Made by a program: the position numbers and the translations under genes. DNA of 64,000 nt, from contig NZ_JABAFO010000004.1 in the NCBI RefSeq assembly GCF_012843675.1, positions 62,001 through 126,000 of the forward strand. Reading direction: 5' to 3'. Shown in pieces: positions 3,499 to 9,312 of the stretch. The notes under the pieces were generated by a model. It did no database searches. It was given only the letters and a program-made list of their open reading frames with translations, and was not told the DNA's origin. Every line of letters starts with the position of its first letter. Positions within the stretch are counted from its first letter, which is position 1. The stretch comes from Lactobacillus sp. MRS-253-APC-2B (GTDB taxonomy: Bacteria; Bacillota; Bacilli; Lactobacillales; Lactobacillaceae).

Positions 3499-3588
3499 TT
3501 AAAAATGAGAATTGAACTATCATTTTTTGTGCAAAAAAGCTAAAACATCAGGGGATTAAAAATAATTAATCTTTTTTATAATTAAAGG

Positions 3589-3617
3589 TTGACGAGATAA
3601 GATTAGAGTGTTTTAAT
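3589..3617 (+). promoter_or_regulatory. Promoter of the aromatic operon leader
   Basis: TTGACG (3589-3594) and TTTAAT (3612-3617) are separated by exactly 17 bases, a good SigA-type promoter. Transcription would start near 3624, about 27 bases before the leader peptide start, giving a leader of some 330 bases before the transporter gene. Confidence 0.65.
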
Positions 3618-3650
3618 GTTAGCAACCAATTATTGAAAGGGGAAGCAATT

Positions 3651-3716
3651 ATGGAACTTCAATGCCAAAATCGACAAGCGTTTTATTTCGACTTTGCTTA
3701 TTATGCTTTCGTTTAG
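3651..3716 (+). CDS. Putative Phe/Tyr-rich leader peptide
   Basis: A 21-codon reading frame with ATG at 3651 and TAG at 3714-3716, preceded by a strong ribosome site (AAAGGGGA, 3636-3643) at 7-base spacing. Its last 12 residues read AFYFDFAYYAFV: four Phe and three Tyr. It sits just after a promoter and just before competing RNA stems and an intrinsic terminator, upstream of genes for chorismate, tyrosine and shikimate metabolism. The first stem begins at the last base of the stop codon. This is the layout of a ribosome-mediated attenuator. The peptide is an inference from sequence only; no homologue was searched. Confidence 0.65.
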   Translation: MELQCQNRQAFYFDFAYYAFV

Positions 3717-3892
3717 CGTTCGTGCTGCTCAAGCACGAACGCAAGACGTTCAGCGCTTGAGCAGAGTCGCATTTTGGCGCGTCTTTGCCGGGCATCTCTA
3801 AATCCAGCAAAGACGAAGTTCACTTCTTCTTTAAATAACCAACCTTAAGTACATCCCTTCATAAAAGTATTGTGCAGAAGGTCAGCTGGATT
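3716..3892 (+). promoter_or_regulatory. Competing RNA stems of the aromatic operon attenuator
   Basis: Several mutually exclusive pairings are visible. Stem A: 3716-3726 with 3732-3742 (11 bp, loop gctca). Stem B: CTGCTCAAGC (3725-3734) with GCTTGAGCAG (3755-3764), a perfect 10-bp pairing that disrupts stem A. Stem C: CGTCTTTGC (3780-3788) with GCAAAGACG (3807-3815). The near copy GCAAGACG (3741-3748) can also take the C 5' arm. Stem D: AATCCAGC (3801-3808) with GCTGGATT (3885-3892), which overlaps both stem C and the 5' arm of the terminator and so could act as antiterminator. No T-box consensus is present. The pairings are seen; the switching order is inferred. Confidence 0.6.
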
Positions 3893-3928
3893 GATGAGGC
3901 AGGCGTCTCGAAACTGGCTGACTTTTTT
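3880..3928 (+). terminator. Leader terminator ahead of the aromatic operon
   Basis: GGTCAGCTGG (3880-3889) pairs with CTGGCTGACT (3914-3923), 10 bp with three G-U pairs, followed by a run of T to 3928. It lies between the leader peptide and the first structural gene, 12 bases before that gene's ribosome site, so it can only be a conditional terminator for the operon. Confidence 0.75.
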
Positions 3929-3953
3929 AATACCTAACTAAGGGGGATTACTT

Positions 3954-5147
3954 ATGGACATTGCAAAAAATCAAGTCGATACAGTGGCTAAACAACGACT
4001 TTCCGTTAGCCTATACCTTAACTACCTGATTCATGGAATGGGGATGATCATTTTAGCCCAAAACATGAATAGCTTAGGAGCTGCTTGGCATCAGCCAATT
4101 AAAATCGTTTCCTTCGTAATTTCAGGAATCGGCATTGGACGCTTGATCTCATACTTGATAACTGGGTTTCTGTCGGATAAGATCAGTCGTAAGTTTTTCG
4201 TTGAGGTAGGGATGTTTTGTTACGCGGCGTTTGCCCTTGGCATGCCGCTTACCAAAAACATTGGTCTGGCTTACGCCTTTGCGATTCTGGCAGGGGTTGC
4301 CAATTCATCATTGGATGCCGGTACTTACACGACTTTCGTGGAAATGAACGGCGGCAACGGAGCCTACACGATTTTAATCAAGGCCTTCGTTTCCGTTGGT
4401 GAATTCATCTTGCCAATTCTGGTTACGATTCTGGCTAATCAAGGAATGTGGTTTGGCTGGAGTTTCATGGTGATGGTTGTTATGTTGGCAATCAACTTCT
4501 GCTTGATTCTGCCACTCAAGTTCCCAGCCGCTAATCAGGCCAGTGGTGACGCCGTTAATGAGCAGGACCCAGAAATCAAAGGGGTCGCTAAAAAAGTCAT
4601 GACCGGCGCGTTGGTTGTCTACGGCTACTCATCGATGGCTTTGATGATCTGGTTTACGCAGTGGATCACGATGTTTGCGCAACAAACGCTGCACATGTCA
4701 AATGGTGCTGCTCACTTCTTACTTTCACTATACAGTATCGGTTCAATTACCGGCGTCTTGGTGCTGTTTGCCTTACTGGGACACAATGTCAAGGAATCGC
4801 ATCTGCTATTGGTCGTTAATATGATTGCCTTGGTATCATTGCTGGTGATCATGCAAAGCGAACAGTCGCTTTTGATGCAGATTGCTTCATTTACTTTTGG
4901 ACTTAGCGCCGCTAGCGGGATTATGCAGACTGGCCTGACGATTTTTATGAAACTTTACCCAACCCACCGTGGTATGATTACCGGTGTCTTCTACTTCTTT
5001 GGCAGCATTGCTTCATTCACGGTGCCAATTATTACTGGGATGCTTTCCGATATTAACATGGCAGCTGTTATGGCTGGGGATCTGGTAATGGCTGGAATTG
5101 GAATTTTAGTTGCTGCAATTGTGATGGCTGCTGAAAAGAAAGGATAA
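3954..5147 (+). CDS. MFS transporter, first gene of the aromatic operon
   Basis: A 397-residue membrane protein with about 12 hydrophobic segments and the loop motif GFLSDKISRK after the second, typical of the major facilitator superfamily. The ATG at 3954 follows AGGGGG at 3941-3946. It is the first structural gene behind the Phe/Tyr leader and is 3 bases from the chorismate mutase gene, so it is probably co-regulated. Transport of an aromatic amino acid or a shikimate-pathway intermediate is the natural inference. The substrate cannot be read from sequence, and efflux or uptake are both possible. Confidence 0.85.
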   Translation: MDIAKNQVDTVAKQRLSVSLYLNYLIHGMGMIILAQNMNSLGAAWHQPIKIVSFVISGIGIGRLISYLITGFLSDKISRKFFVEVGMFCYAAFALGMPLTKNIGLAYAFAILAGVANSSLDAGTYTTFVEMNGGNGAYTILIKAFVSVGEFILPILVTILANQGMWFGWSFMVMVVMLAINFCLILPLKFPAANQASGDAVNEQDPEIKGVAKKVMTGALVVYGYSSMALMIWFTQWITMFAQQTLHMSNGAAHFLLSLYSIGSITGVLVLFALLGHNVKESHLLLVVNMIALVSLLVIMQSEQSLLMQIASFTFGLSAASGIMQTGLTIFMKLYPTHRGMITGVFYFFGSIASFTVPIITGMLSDINMAAVMAGDLVMAGIGILVAAIVMAAEKKG

Positions 5148-5150
5148 CCA

Positions 5151-5411
5151 ATGGAAAATCCACAATTAAACGCACTGCGCGATCAGATCAATGCCGTTGA
5201 CGAAAAGCTGGTGCAATTGCTTGAGCAGCGTTTCGCCATTGTTAAAGAAGTCGGGGTAGTCAAGCAGGCTGCCAAGCTGCCAATAAGAGACGAGAAACGA
5301 GAACAGGCGGTTTTGGACTGGCTAAAAGCAAAAGTCGATGATGAAGCGTTGCAGCCGGCAATACAAGCCATTTTCCAAACGATTATGGACGAAGCTAAAA
5401 AGCTGGAGTAA
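5151..5411 (+). CDS. Chorismate mutase, AroQ class
   Basis: An 86-residue all-helical protein that should convert chorismate to prephenate, the common precursor of Phe and Tyr. The pattern LRDQINAVDEKLVQLLEQRF near the N-terminus, with the active-site Arg in the first helix and the Lys/Arg residues of VKQAAKLPIRDEKRE, fits the minimal monofunctional AroQ fold, and the length is normal. It follows the MFS gene after 3 bases and precedes aroC by 44 bases. Prephenate is used by TyrA two genes further on. No prephenate dehydratase (pheA) lies in the window. Confidence 0.9.
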   Translation: MENPQLNALRDQINAVDEKLVQLLEQRFAIVKEVGVVKQAAKLPIRDEKREQAVLDWLKAKVDDEALQPAIQAIFQTIMDEAKKLE

Positions 5412-5455: not shown

Positions 5456-6622
5456 ATGAACTACTTGACTGCCGGTGAATCGCATGGACCACAGCTGACC
5501 GGAATCTTAGAAGGTATCCCAGCAGGCCTGCACTTGGATGTGGAGCAAATCAACCAGGCGCTGGCTGCTCGCCAGGGAGGCTATGGACGCGGCAACCGCC
5601 AAAAAATTGAACATGATACGGTTGAAATTGTTGGTGGCGTCCGTCATGGCGTAACATTGGGCTCACCAATTGCATTGACAGTCAAAAACCGCGATCATGC
5701 ACATTGGTCGGAAATCATGAATCCAACATCACCAGCTACGCCAGAAAATACCGTACGCAAGGTGAACCATCCACGACCTGGGCACGCGGATCTGGTTGGC
5801 GGCATGAAGTACCGGCATCGTGACCTGCGCAACGTCCTAGAACGTTCATCAGCTCGGGAGACGGCGATGCGCGTGGCCGTTGGTAACATCTGTGAACAGT
5901 TGCTGGCCGCATTGGATATTTCGATTATTGGCTATGTACAGCAGGTTGGCTTTATCGATGCTCGCGGCAAACAACCTGATAACGTCAAGGCAATTGAAAT
6001 GCTGATTGCCCAAAATGACTTAAGAATCATTGACAACACCAAAGTTGAGGCGATTCATCAATTGATTGACCAAACCAAGCGCAATGGCGACACGTTAGGC
6101 GGGATTATCCGCGTGGTTGCGGAAAACGTACCTGCTGGCTTAGGCAGTCACGTCAGTTGGGACACCAAATTAGATGGCAAGCTGGCAGCTGCAGTAATGG
6201 GAGTCAATGCCATGAAGGGAGTCTCGATTGGTGACGGATTTGAAAATGCAGTCCGGCTGGGCAGTCAGGTAATGGATGAAATCAGTTGGAATCAAGAAAC
6301 CGGCTACTCACGTTTGAGTAATCACTTGGGCGGTTTTGAAGGCGGGATGACCAATGGCATGCCAATTATCATCAACGCGGCCATGAAGCCAATTCCAACT
6401 TTATACAAACCACTGCAGACAGTTGACGTAACCAATCATGAACCAGTTAAGGCCAATGTTGAGCGTTCTGATACGACCGCGATCGTGCCGGCATCTTTGG
6501 TCGTTGAAAATGTCGTTGCCATCGAGCTGGCCAAGGCAATTGCGGATGCGTTTGAAGCTTCCAGCCTGGAACGTCTGCAGGCTGAAGTGGCCGCTTGGCG
6601 TCAGGAAATGCGCGAATACTAA
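5456..6622 (+). CDS. aroC: Chorismate synthase
   Basis: Makes chorismate from EPSP with reduced FMN, the last step of the shikimate pathway. The 388-residue sequence has the family signatures ESHGPQLTGILEGIPAGL at the N-terminus, GRGNRQKIEHD in the flavin/substrate region and RHRDLRNVLERSSARETAMR near residue 120-140. The ribosome site AAGAGG lies at the expected spacing before ATG 5456. It is the third gene of the attenuator-controlled operon and is 13 bases from aroA, with the ribosome site of aroA directly after its stop codon. Confidence 0.97.
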   Translation: MNYLTAGESHGPQLTGILEGIPAGLHLDVEQINQALAARQGGYGRGNRQKIEHDTVEIVGGVRHGVTLGSPIALTVKNRDHAHWSEIMNPTSPATPENTVRKVNHPRPGHADLVGGMKYRHRDLRNVLERSSARETAMRVAVGNICEQLLAALDISIIGYVQQVGFIDARGKQPDNVKAIEMLIAQNDLRIIDNTKVEAIHQLIDQTKRNGDTLGGIIRVVAENVPAGLGSHVSWDTKLDGKLAAAVMGVNAMKGVSIGDGFENAVRLGSQVMDEISWNQETGYSRLSNHLGGFEGGMTNGMPIIINAAMKPIPTLYKPLQTVDVTNHEPVKANVERSDTTAIVPASLVVENVVAIELAKAIADAFEASSLERLQAEVAAWRQEMREY

Positions 6623-6635
6623 AGGAGGAAACGTC

Positions 6636-7937
6636 ATGAAAGAACTTGCCACGGCCCCACACGGGCTTCATGGATCATTGACGGTACCTGGCGATAAAAG
6701 TATTTCACATCGCGCGGTCATGCTGGGAGCAATCAGTAAGGGAGAAACGGTAATTCATCATTTTTTGGATGGCGATGATTGTCTGTCGACTTTAAAGGCT
6801 TTTAATGATATGGGCGTTAAAAGCGAACGTGATGGGGGGACCGTTGTTATTCACGGCAATGGAATCGATGCACTAAACAAGCCGGCACAGCCTCTGGATA
6901 TGGGGAATTCTGGCACGACTACGCGCTTGTTGATGGGGATTTTAGCAGGCCGTGACTTTGAGACGCGACTTTTTGGAGATGCCTCATTGCAAAAACGCCC
7001 GATGAAACGGGTCAGTGAGCCATTAAGCCATTTTGGGGCCCAGGTTGAGCTAACGGACAACGGGACGCTGCCGGCAGTGATTTATGGTCAAAAGCTGCAT
7101 GGTACCGACTGCCAAATGCAAGTGGCCAGCGCGCAGGTCAAAAGCGCATTGATTTTTGCCGCATTACAGGCCGATACGCCATCAACGATTATTGAAAAAC
7201 TGCCAACCAGAAATCATACCGAAATCATGCTACGGCAATTTGGCGCCGAAATTGAAACGGAAGCTGATCAAAAAACGATTCATGTTATGCCACAGCCGGA
7301 GTTGACAGGGCAAACGGTCGAGGTGCCAGGTGACGTTTCTTCGGCTGCCTTTTTCTTGACAGCCGGGGCAATCGTTCCTGATTCAAAGATTAAGTTGGAA
7401 CGGGTGAATCTAAATCCAACTCGAACTGGAATTATCGATGTGTTGCAGAAAATGGGCGCTGACCTACAGATCGAAGCACTACCAACTAAGGGCGAGCCAT
7501 TGGGCAATATTACGATTGCCACAAGTCAGCTTAAGCCGATTCAAATCGAGGCTGAAGATATTCCGGCAGTGATCGATGAATTGCCGCTAGTCGCGCTGTT
7601 GGCTGCTTGTGCTGATGGAACCAGTTCGATTCGTGGAGCTGAAGAGCTGCGGGTAAAAGAAACGGATCGAATTCAAACCGTAGTTGCTGAGCTGCGTAAA
7701 TTAGGCGTTCAAGTTGAAGAGCTCGCAGACGGTATGATCATTGAGGGAAGAAATGAATGGGCAATTAACAACGATCAGCTTGATAGCTATGGTGATCATC
7801 GCATTGGTATGATGGACGCGATTGCGGCATTAAAGGCTCCCCAACCGCTGCGGCTCGCGCATGCGGATGCGGTCAGTGTTTCATACCCTAAGTTTTTCCA
7901 AGATCTGCAAAAGCTTTTAGGAGGCGGTCTGGCATGA
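6636..7937 (+). CDS. aroA: 3-phosphoshikimate 1-carboxyvinyltransferase (EPSP synthase)
   Basis: Transfers the enolpyruvyl group of PEP to shikimate-3-phosphate. The 433-residue protein has the two inverted-fold domains and the motifs PGDKSISHRAVMLG (near residue 17), GNSGTTTRLL, LFGDASLQKRPM and the C-terminal YGDHRIGMM. An in-frame frame extends back into aroC, but the ATG at 6636 with a perfect AAAGGAGG (6621-6628) is clearly the start. Its TGA overlaps the ATG of tyrA (ATGA), which implies translational coupling. Confidence 0.97.
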   Translation: MKELATAPHGLHGSLTVPGDKSISHRAVMLGAISKGETVIHHFLDGDDCLSTLKAFNDMGVKSERDGGTVVIHGNGIDALNKPAQPLDMGNSGTTTRLLMGILAGRDFETRLFGDASLQKRPMKRVSEPLSHFGAQVELTDNGTLPAVIYGQKLHGTDCQMQVASAQVKSALIFAALQADTPSTIIEKLPTRNHTEIMLRQFGAEIETEADQKTIHVMPQPELTGQTVEVPGDVSSAAFFLTAGAIVPDSKIKLERVNLNPTRTGIIDVLQKMGADLQIEALPTKGEPLGNITIATSQLKPIQIEAEDIPAVIDELPLVALLAACADGTSSIRGAEELRVKETDRIQTVVAELRKLGVQVEELADGMIIEGRNEWAINNDQLDSYGDHRIGMMDAIAALKAPQPLRLAHADAVSVSYPKFFQDLQKLLGGGLA

Positions 7938-8782
7938 CGACGGTGTTTGTCAAAGGATTGGGTTTAATCGGCAGCACGCTGATTCGGGCAATTCGCCAAA
8001 AACATCCTCAATATCGTATCGTGGGCAGCGATATCTCCACGGCAACGCTGGATTTTGCCATTGAGCAGGGATTGATTGATGATGCGGGGACCAATCTATA
8101 CCAAGCTGATCAGGCTGATTTTATTATTCTTGCCGGGCCCGTATCGGCAATTGTCAAAGACCTGCATGACTTAGCGCAATTGGAACTAAAGCCGGGAGTG
8201 ATCATTACCGATGTCGGCAGTACCAAGCAGACAATTATTGATGCTGCTCAGCCGCTGATTGAGCGTGGTGATGTCTTTATCGGGGGGCATCCAATGGCTG
8301 GATCGCATGAATCAGGCATTCAAGCTGGGCGAATCGATCTTTTCAAAGACGCTTACTACTTTTTGATTCCAACCAGCGGCTCAAGAGGAATTGCCGAACT
8401 CAAAGATCTTTTAAGCGGGCTGAACGTCAATTGGTACTTGATTCATGCGCGTCAGCACGATAAAATCGTTGCCCAACTCAGTCATGTTCCACACGTGATT
8501 GCGACAGCTTTGGTTGCCCAATCGGCAGCCACTTTTAAAGATCATCCTGAACTTTTGACTTTGGCCGCGGGTGGATTTAAGTCAACGACCAGAATTGCCA
8601 AATCGGATCCGACAATGTGGAGCGCGATCATGCACAACAACCGCGAGCTGATCGTTCATCAGCTTGACGAATGCCTAAATGAACTGCAGTTACTACGCCA
8701 GGCAATTGCTGACGATGACCAAGAAAAGCTCTTTGCCATCTTTTCAAAAGCCAAGGCCGATCGTGAACGAATCGATCATTAG
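7934..8782 (+). CDS. tyrA: Prephenate dehydrogenase
   Basis: Oxidatively decarboxylates prephenate to 4-hydroxyphenylpyruvate, the committed step to tyrosine. The 282-residue protein opens with the NAD-binding motif GLGLIGS at residues 8-14 and carries the substrate motif GGHPMAGSHESG and the helical dimer domain. It ends after the catalytic core and lacks the extra C-terminal ACT domain found in the longer Bacillus-type enzymes, so direct tyrosine feedback through that domain is not expected. The start overlaps the aroA stop by 4 bases. Confidence 0.95.
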   Translation: MTTVFVKGLGLIGSTLIRAIRQKHPQYRIVGSDISTATLDFAIEQGLIDDAGTNLYQADQADFIILAGPVSAIVKDLHDLAQLELKPGVIITDVGSTKQTIIDAAQPLIERGDVFIGGHPMAGSHESGIQAGRIDLFKDAYYFLIPTSGSRGIAELKDLLSGLNVNWYLIHARQHDKIVAQLSHVPHVIATALVAQSAATFKDHPELLTLAAGGFKSTTRIAKSDPTMWSAIMHNNRELIVHQLDECLNELQLLRQAIADDDQEKLFAIFSKAKADRERIDH

Positions 8783-8793
8783 GAGGAAGCAAG

Positions 8794-9312
8794 ATGGAAC
8801 TGATTTTGATAGGATTTATGGGGAGTGGCAAAACTACGGTCAGTCGAATGCTGGGCAAGATGTTGAATGCTCCCGTTACTGATTTGGATGATGAAATCGT
8901 TCGTCGTACTGGTATGACGATTCCTGATATTTTTGCCCAAAATGGCGAGGAATACTTTCGTCAATTAGAACATGATACACTAGCTGACATTATCAAATCT
9001 GATCAGGGCATTTTGGCAACTGGCGGCGGCACGCCAATGCGTCCTGACAATCTGACCATACTTAAAGACACGTCGACGCCGGTAGTGCTTTTGAAGGCTA
9101 GCGCGACTGAAACGCTGCGACGGATTGGCGGTGACAGTGGCCGGCCATTGGCTAAGTCTTTAGACGAAAAAGGGATTGCCAATCTGCAAGCCCAGCGTCA
9201 GGTTAATTACGACGCCTGTGCCGATTTGACAATCAAAACGGATGGGTTGAGTCCAGCGGCGATTGCTGAAGAGATTGTTAGTTTTTTGAACTTGCCGATA
9301 TCAGCAAACTAA
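8794..9312 (+). CDS. aroK: Shikimate kinase
   Basis: Phosphorylates shikimate at the 3-OH, feeding AroA. At 172 residues it has normal length, with Walker A GFMGSGKTT at residues 7-15, the shikimate-binding DLDDEI segment and GGGTPM. It is the last gene of the operon, 11 bases after tyrA, and is followed by a strong intrinsic terminator. DAHP synthase and the aroB, aroD and aroE genes are not in this window, so the operon covers only the late shikimate steps and the tyrosine branch. Confidence 0.96.
   Translation: MELILIGFMGSGKTTVSRMLGKMLNAPVTDLDDEIVRRTGMTIPDIFAQNGEEYFRQLEHDTLADIIKSDQGILATGGGTPMRPDNLTILKDTSTPVVLLKASATETLRRIGGDSGRPLAKSLDEKGIANLQAQRQVNYDACADLTIKTDGLSPAAIAEEIVSFLNLPISAN

Follow-up and report, generated by a model that had tools for sequence, protein, structure and literature searches.

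A leader found widely in Lactobacillaceae probably attenuates transcription in response to tyrosine and phenylalanine

The leader ahead of an aromatic amino acid operon in the window, i.e. the whole stretch of 64,000 nucleotides that was analyzed, is probably a ribosome-mediated transcription attenuator, which would sense charged tRNA-Tyr and tRNA-Phe via a short leader peptide. The leader device is widespread in Lactobacillaceae; it would act like a trp/his-type attenuator, and no catalogued leader family matched it in the search of Rfam. A preliminary description of this DNA had proposed a Phe/Tyr leader peptide and ribosome-mediated attenuation of an aromatic operon. This proposal is well supported at the sequence level by conservation, covariation and the matching of leader codons to genes, and the evidence for it is strong. 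The promoter, ribosome site, 21-codon frame, stems A to D and terminator listed in that description all lie at the coordinates it gave, and most of these elements recur in relatives. Helix E and the Z helices, which are described herein, are present in the window and were absent from the preliminary description.

The leader stretch is flanked by genes matching homoserine dehydrogenase and GHMP kinase, and by the aromatic operon. The elements at the start of the leader and the genes of the operon are as follows.

3589..3617, + strand: sigma-70-type promoter (TTGACG at 3589-3594, spacer of 17 nt, TTTAAT at 3612-3617; match 11/12)
3636..3642, + strand: leader ribosome site AAAGGGG, read from the sequence
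3651..3716, + strand: leader peptide frame MELQCQNRQAFYFDFAYYAFV, 21 codons, with a TAG stop that adjoins stem A; also found in relatives
3954..5147, + strand: MFS transporter, the first gene (Pfam MFS_1, E 6.4e-26)
5151..5411, + strand: chorismate mutase (Pfam CM_2; NCBIfam CM_mono_grmpos above its cut-off)
5456..6622, + strand: chorismate synthase (Pfam)
6633..7937, + strand: EPSP synthase (Pfam)
7934..8782, + strand: prephenate dehydrogenase (Pfam PDH_N, PDH_C)
8794..9312, + strand: shikimate kinase (Pfam SKI)

A promoter match of at least 10/12 was found in 127 of 132 distinct relatives and in 5 of 131 when the same scan was placed 150 nt further upstream as a control, with TTTAAT having been admitted as a -10 box only after the window had been inspected. 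Matches of at least 4/6 to AGGAGG were found at the ribosome site of 124/128 distinct leaders, a comparison made with no control. The consensus promoter and terminator scan of the window listed neither the leader promoter nor its terminator. We take the promoter to have been missed because the scan demands that the second base of the -10 box be A. Likewise, we take the terminator to have been missed because its stem is broken by internal loops. A terminator hairpin of -10 kcal/mol or lower is present in 131 of the 132 distinct relatives. In folding, the 313-nt leader lies 6.6 SD below its dinucleotide shuffles, and none of 100 shuffles was as stable. This indicates that the leader fold is more than chance.

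The last 12 residues of the leader peptide in the window hold 4 Phe and 3 Tyr. A leader frame is present in all 132 distinct leader regions, the frames having been sought near the motif. Over 128 distinct leaders the aromatic fraction is 0.298 in the leader frame versus 0.060 and 0.095 in the other frames and 0.142 in base-shuffled sequence, a difference that is partly due to ascertainment. The stop codon abuts stem A in the window, so that a terminating ribosome would be positioned over the first stem. This placement of stop and stem is conserved: in 102 of the 132 distinct leader regions, its distance from the model start is 33 nt. Among 85 distinct leaders from genera besides Limosilactobacillus, 59 have AGN as their final codon (AGG 23, AGA 23, AGT 10, AGC 3) and one has CGN, and the penultimate codon is TTT in 74 of the 85. 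The AGN codon looks like a nucleotide-level constraint just 5' of stem A. Upstream of the leader C-terminus, the aromatic residues are kept while the codons change.

The attenuator RNA is made of seven segments, which would pair in a chain as 1:2 (stem A), 2:3 (stem B), 3:4 (helix E), 4:5 (stem C), 5:6 (antiterminator D) and 6:7 (terminator). The leader codons provide further arms. The pairing regions in the window are as follows.

3664..3671, + strand: 5' arm of Z1, in the leader codons; pairs with 3771-3778 (inverted repeat I9)
3771..3778, + strand: 3' arm of Z1 (inverted repeat I9); covariation in relatives
3689..3698, + strand: 5' arm of Z2, in the leader codons; pairs with 3760-3769 and would shut the switch arm if the leader is untranslated (predicted fold and covariation)
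3716..3742, + strand: stem A, segments 1:2; 3716-3726 with 3732-3742 (inverted repeat I1)
3725..3764, + strand: stem B, segments 2:3; 3725-3734 with 3755-3764, inner stem 3737-3741 with 3747-3751 (inverted repeat I5)
3755..3793, + strand: helix E, segments 3:4; 3755-3759 and 3761-3766 with 3783-3793, A3760 bulged; would open stem C
3780..3815, + strand: stem C, segments 4:5; 3780-3791 with 3804-3815 (inverted repeat I3); would close the 5' arm of the antiterminator
3801..3892, + strand: antiterminator D, segments 5:6; 3801-3808 with 3885-3892 (inverted repeat I10)
3878..3928, + strand: intrinsic terminator and U run, segments 6:7; arms are inverted repeat I12, hairpin -20.2 kcal/mol

In helix E, the 3' arm of B (3755-3766), which serves as the switch arm, is paired with the 5' arm of C. 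During a shortage of Tyr or Phe, the ribosome would stall where it meets the earliest aromatic codons, near Y12 and F13. The stalled ribosome would cover the leader arm of Z2 and leave segment 1 free, and stem A could form. With A formed, segment 3 would be free, and helix E would form and open stem C. The open C would let D form ahead of the synthesis of the 3' arm of the terminator, and the operon would be read. With enough Tyr and Phe, the ribosome would reach the stop codon and cover segment 1, and B, C and the terminator would form. With no ribosome on the leader, its codons would pair with segment 3 through Z1 and Z2, giving C and the terminator; the device would be off by default. We infer that the frame is translated, that ribosomes stall in it, and that read-through responds to Phe and Tyr.

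An alignment across the genus had been proposed as a check in the preliminary description. In such an alignment the aromatic-rich short frame is kept, and compensatory changes are present in stems A, B and C, and in E and Z as well. The alignment used (A5, plain MAFFT) covers 44 of 47 genus places with 43 distinct leaders; it omits L045, a duplicate of L044, as well as L078 and L079, which were the weakest two. In stem A, 89.1% of cells are paired and 5 pairs are changed on both sides; in helix E, the values are 93.2% and 4. Taken together, A and E give 91.3% and 9 pairs, which was reached by 0 of 500 shuffles. Stem B gives 85.4% and 7 pairs (1/500 shuffles), stem C 87.2% and 8 pairs, and Z2 with C 87.7% and 13 pairs (0/500). 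Z1 gives 85.6% and 7 pairs (4/500), with columns defined from L022 and a register that differs in the window. Helices that were slid as a control for A+E, B, Z2+C and Z1 paired in at most 53.2% of cells.

The arms were also compared with arms swapped between leaders. In other genera, the cognate E arms gave -15.7 versus -12.2 kcal/mol for swapped ones, and in 67 of 73 leaders they were stronger than the median of the swapped ones. The cognate B arms gave -15.2 versus -11.9 kcal/mol and beat the median in 66 of the 73. The 73 leaders are the distinct ones of 85 rows, after 8 genus rows of 93 had been set aside. For the D arms, the cognate value was -18.36 versus -14.37 kcal/mol (n = 58, i.e. 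58 of 59 loci; L078, which is without a hairpin, was left out).

The distribution of the leader was determined by several searches. A DNA search of 56 genomes matched 12. Nine of these besides the window's own carry the same leader ahead of an orthologous MFS transporter, and in one (G029) the leader lies ahead of an NhaC-type transporter. By eye, no leader was seen upstream of the transporter in G048, a genome of another family, or at L018, a 32-nt DNA match. A covariance model (R1) was built with a core from 11 sequences and with stems Z2, A and C, without B and E. At E <=0.1 it matched 39 of 50 genus genomes, including 35 of the 41 of good quality, and gave no match in 11 of the 50 (6 of the 41). 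At E <=0.01 it matched 16 of 395 genomes of the order. A second model (R2), built from 59 matches, matched 162 of 396 Lactobacillaceae genomes in 25 of 40 genera, and, within the class, 9 of 398 genomes, among them that of the window, from 4 of 146 genera. Stricter filters apply in the searches covering more than 40 genomes, and both models include TATTAT columns, which biases the matches towards such leaders. The window's genome has one copy of the leader device.

R2 also matched 27 of 28 named loci around relatives of the MFS transporter, the sole one without a match being that of Ligilactobacillus equi. Within Limosilactobacillus, the 27 include mucosae, rudii, kribbianus, frumenti, caviae, caccae and alvi; the other genera among them include Secundilactobacillus, Paucilactobacillus, Lacticaseibacillus, Apilactobacillus, Holzapfeliella and Fructobacillus. 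Among the matches listed, by a search that may omit records lying very close to the window, Limosilactobacillus mucosae DSM 13345 is the nearest with a name. Its first protein is 89% identical, in support of the earlier guess that the DNA is from Limosilactobacillus. Altogether, 152 loci (59 + 93) were examined in detail. From the family search, 50 further loci were picked among the matches listed to span genera. When leaders of identical sequence from the leader start to just beyond the motif were collapsed, 132 distinct leader regions remained. Many of these are closely related, and the counts are not counts of independent events.

Over the 132 loci, the next gene encodes an MFS transporter in 65, an NhaC-type transporter in 30, shikimate dehydrogenase in 13, chorismate mutase in 7, a TrpX-like ABC binding protein in 5, a PDT-like protein in 4, an APC permease in 2, another ABC protein in 2, and shikimate kinase, EPSP synthase and an aminotransferase in one each, with one locus without class, where a POT-family gene is found further on; the classes were assigned by tblastn against one reference each, with Pfam and NCBIfam used to check these references. 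Those loci that belong to the order's other families precede TrpX-like genes (six before collapsing), shikimate dehydrogenase (two) and other ABC genes (two), with weak model scores. The TrpX-like ABC binding proteins there are preceded by leaders such as MSQNCQLKIAKHSYYYSYFR (L093, L095, L097-L100, of another family of the order), and the substrate of these transporters may include Tyr. At L165, a weak model match, a short leader MNSYYWLSYFSKRP precedes a POT-family transporter gene, a gene class unique among the loci.

The leader codons match the putative product or substrate of the regulated genes, the substrates of the transporters being predicted ones. The Phe share of Phe plus Tyr in the last ten codons is 4% for the NhaC type (28 leaders), 30% for shikimate dehydrogenase (13), 38% for MFS (63), 43% for chorismate mutase (7), 80% for APC (2) and 93% for PDT-like genes (4). 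By a rank test uncorrected for relatedness, NhaC differs from MFS at p = 5e-13 and PDT-like from MFS at p = 8e-4. Codon contrasts are also seen within one cell, in seven genomes with two or three leaders. Where an aromatic codon differs by a single change, an aromatic residue is kept in 11541 of 13227 comparisons, which are non-independent, versus about 22% of the possible changes in Phe and Tyr codons that would keep one.

Codon 15 of the window's leader is also part of arm Z2. Of 31 NhaC leaders, 23 have Tyr at this codon and none has Phe, and the Z2 pair at this place is broken in 25 of the 31, including 22 of the 23 Tyr ones. In MFS leaders it is Phe in 9 of 12, and the Z2 pair is kept in all 12. 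Codon identity seems to outweigh RNA pairing at codon 15, judged from these leaders, and most NhaC leaders may inherit the change from one event. The position is window 3694/3764, where Z2 of most NhaC leaders has an A-G mismatch at a Tyr codon replacing Phe.

The most Phe-rich leaders precede a protein of about 176 aa that starts with MxIHTLGPxxTDSYAAA and is nearly without database match.

L145:1225-1752, L149:533-1060, L160:1233-1754, L077:1729-2259: PDT-like protein of about 176 aa

Pfam PDT was found at E 0.057 for one of two of these proteins tested, and nothing was found in PDB by sequence or profile. The protein may be a prephenate dehydratase of short and divergent form, or may have another identity. 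At one PDT-like locus, the next frame resembles prephenate dehydrogenase by eye.

The order of pairing was predicted by masked equilibrium folding, with an assumed transcript start, an assumed ribosome footprint of -14 to +15 around the P site, and pseudoknot-free structures. For the window RNA up to the terminator loop, the fold with no ribosome gave Z2 0.97, A 1.00, C 0.90 and D 0. With Tyr12 in the A site, the values were A 1.00, B 0.00, E 0.92 and D 0.85. With the ribosome at the stop codon, they were A 0.00, B 0.80, C 0.90 and D 0.00. Phe13 in the A site gave E 0.48 and D 0.45, Phe11 and Asp14 gave D 0.08 each, and Phe15, Tyr17, Tyr18 and Phe20 gave D 0. The Tyr12, Phe13 and stop results were repeated with a second masking method. 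D thus differs by stall codon, which indicates that the seven aromatic codons are unequal. The predicted control codons are Y12 and F13, with F11 added by the looser contact measure only; this measure adds Phe11 and Asp14 as stalls that give D.

The same folding was applied to 44 genus leaders, comparing the stall (41 at Tyr, 3 at Phe) with the stop codon. At the stall, A was up in 29 and down in 0, B down in 29 and up in 8, E up in 25 and down in 2, C down in 26 and up in 2, and D up in 28 and down in 1. Over 131 distinct leaders, with the RNA ending before the 3' arm of the terminator, D at the stall was up in 50, down in 3 and little changed in 78.

In the window at the Tyr12 stall, the complete terminator gave 0.93 for RNA ends at 3926 or 3928; it gave 0.02 solely for the RNA end at 3932, through pairing between the U run and the 5' end, and we regard this loss as an artefact. 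The stall removed the complete terminator in 3 of 151 leaders (L039, L119 and L150, the window's leader not being one of them). Because the complete terminator is favored at equilibrium, the switch must depend on folding during transcription, and D would have to act as a kinetic block in its last step. The equilibrium folding supports the pairing order up to the terminator, and not that last step. D, once formed, would hold off the more stable terminator for long enough.

It was considered whether the leader senses general translation or starvation rather than Phe and Tyr. Stalls at the first codons E2-Q4 of the window also give D (0.43-0.19), as such a sensor would allow. This alternative is nevertheless unlikely, since the identity of the codons tracks the gene that comes next, even between leaders of a single genome in the seven genomes with two or three of them.

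A reversed switch built from the same parts was proposed in the preliminary description, in which stalling shifts A to B and the duplicated arms GCAAGACG and GCAAAGACG free D. Both arms are present in the window, stems A and B do overlap, and B is still high at the stall in 24 of the 44 genus leaders. The masked folding of the window gave the opposite order, A at the Tyr12 stall and B at the stop codon, and over the 44 leaders A never decreased at the stall. B, once formed, would close segment 3 and let C form. The arm exchange, 3741-3748 with 3780-3788, pairs in 54.4% of cells versus 44.3-72.3% for slid positions, the highest value being at +2. The GCAAGACG/GCAAAGACG pairing is not conserved in relatives and was rejected. 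We consider the shift from A to B quite improbable.

Judged equally improbable is an arrest peptide of the TnaC/SpeFL type, in which the nascent peptide would sense free Tyr or Phe and the ribosome would be arrested at the stop codon, with the terminator state as the outcome. A Phe-Arg-stop ending is indeed frequent among the leaders of other genera, and masked folding with the ribosome kept at the stop codon yields the off state. However, the last codon, AGN in most of these leaders, encodes Arg in some and Ser in others, as if it were fixed as nucleotides, and the aromatic codons follow the downstream gene.

In TRAP-regulated leaders, about 11 GAG/UAG triplets are found with spacers of 2-3 nt. 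A TRAP-like, protein-dependent attenuation with an incidental short frame would suit the terminator and competing stems as well. The window has five such triplets in 3618-3932, with a longest spaced run of 2 versus about 11, and conservation extends to the frame, to its codons and to the spacing of stop and stem. TRAP regulation was rejected on the triplet run, and we hold a TRAP-like switch to be very unlikely.

A T-box riboswitch or another RNA binding tRNA directly is hardly credible here, even with 29 T-box matches at E <=0.001 in the genome, one of which, just under the cut-off, precedes a gene with a phenylalanyl-tRNA synthetase core domain: no match to T-box (RF00230) or any other of the 4227 families of Rfam 15 reached its gathering threshold in the window, and within 3580-3960 just four matches came up at E values as high as 10, all to miRNA, snoRNA and lncRNA families. 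Eight of the 29 matches are over the family cut-off, and the earlier remark that Firmicutes usually rely on T-boxes fits this genome. A T-box match on the minus strand (G000:C34:60597-60809) lies about 1.2 kb before the start of the window, with 83.1 bits and a family cut-off of 93. The Rfam enteric amino-acid leader families gave no match to the leader up to E 10 in 3580-3960.

Beyond the window, we lean towards a wider picture. One seven-segment attenuator RNA, off unless its leader is translated and the ribosome stalled, would be common to Lactobacillaceae and probably to some other families of the order. Its specificity would have been re-tuned by exchange of Phe and Tyr codons while it was put to use ahead of shikimate genes, of prephenate-dehydratase-like genes and of NhaC-type, APC-type and ABC transporters, in the place held by T-boxes elsewhere in Firmicutes. 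A group thought to depend on T-boxes would thereby gain a large family of leader-peptide attenuators that is apparently undescribed. Since the codons track the next gene, they would hint at substrates of poorly annotated transporters, Tyr for the NhaC type and Phe for the APC type (two leaders only for APC), and the leaders would point to a barely recognizable protein of the Phe branch. The family would also be a natural experiment on how attenuators change their amino-acid specificity.

The enteric trp, his, pheA and pheST leaders are amino-acid leader-peptide attenuators, and the his attenuator is a chain of alternating segments. The Lactobacillaceae device resembles them in its short frame rich in the regulated amino acid, its alternative stems, its intrinsic terminator and its biosynthetic operon, and it shares the alternating chain with his. 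It differs in its seven segments, in matching no Rfam family and in its Lactobacillaceae host. In addition, codons of its leader provide a pairing partner for the switch arm, by which an untranslated leader should close the device, and one RNA serves differing kinds of genes with retuned codons.

Leader-peptide attenuation where T-boxes are common has precedents in Firmicutes. The available parts of the reports describe His leader peptides before hisS* and hisZ in bacilli, called a noticeable finding for Firmicutes (PMC2965389), His attenuators before his operons in some Firmicutes, with T-boxes for His in Lactobacillales (PMC9413887), and a Leu leader before ilv-leu of Staphylococcus aureus (PMC5794164). 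These concern other amino acids and lineages, and no aromatic device is described in those parts. In open-access titles and abstract beginnings, no description of Tyr/Phe leader-peptide attenuation in Lactobacillales was found, and a report may exist. For Trp, another report (PMC9382623) places a T-box ahead of trpX in S. suis, with no hit in S. pyogenes. A parallel in target is the Tyr T-box before NhaC-family transporters (PMC2494555), with the same kind of gene and the same amino acid. The T-box binds tRNA directly, whereas the NhaC-type genes of Limosilactobacillus carry a Tyr-rich leader frame.
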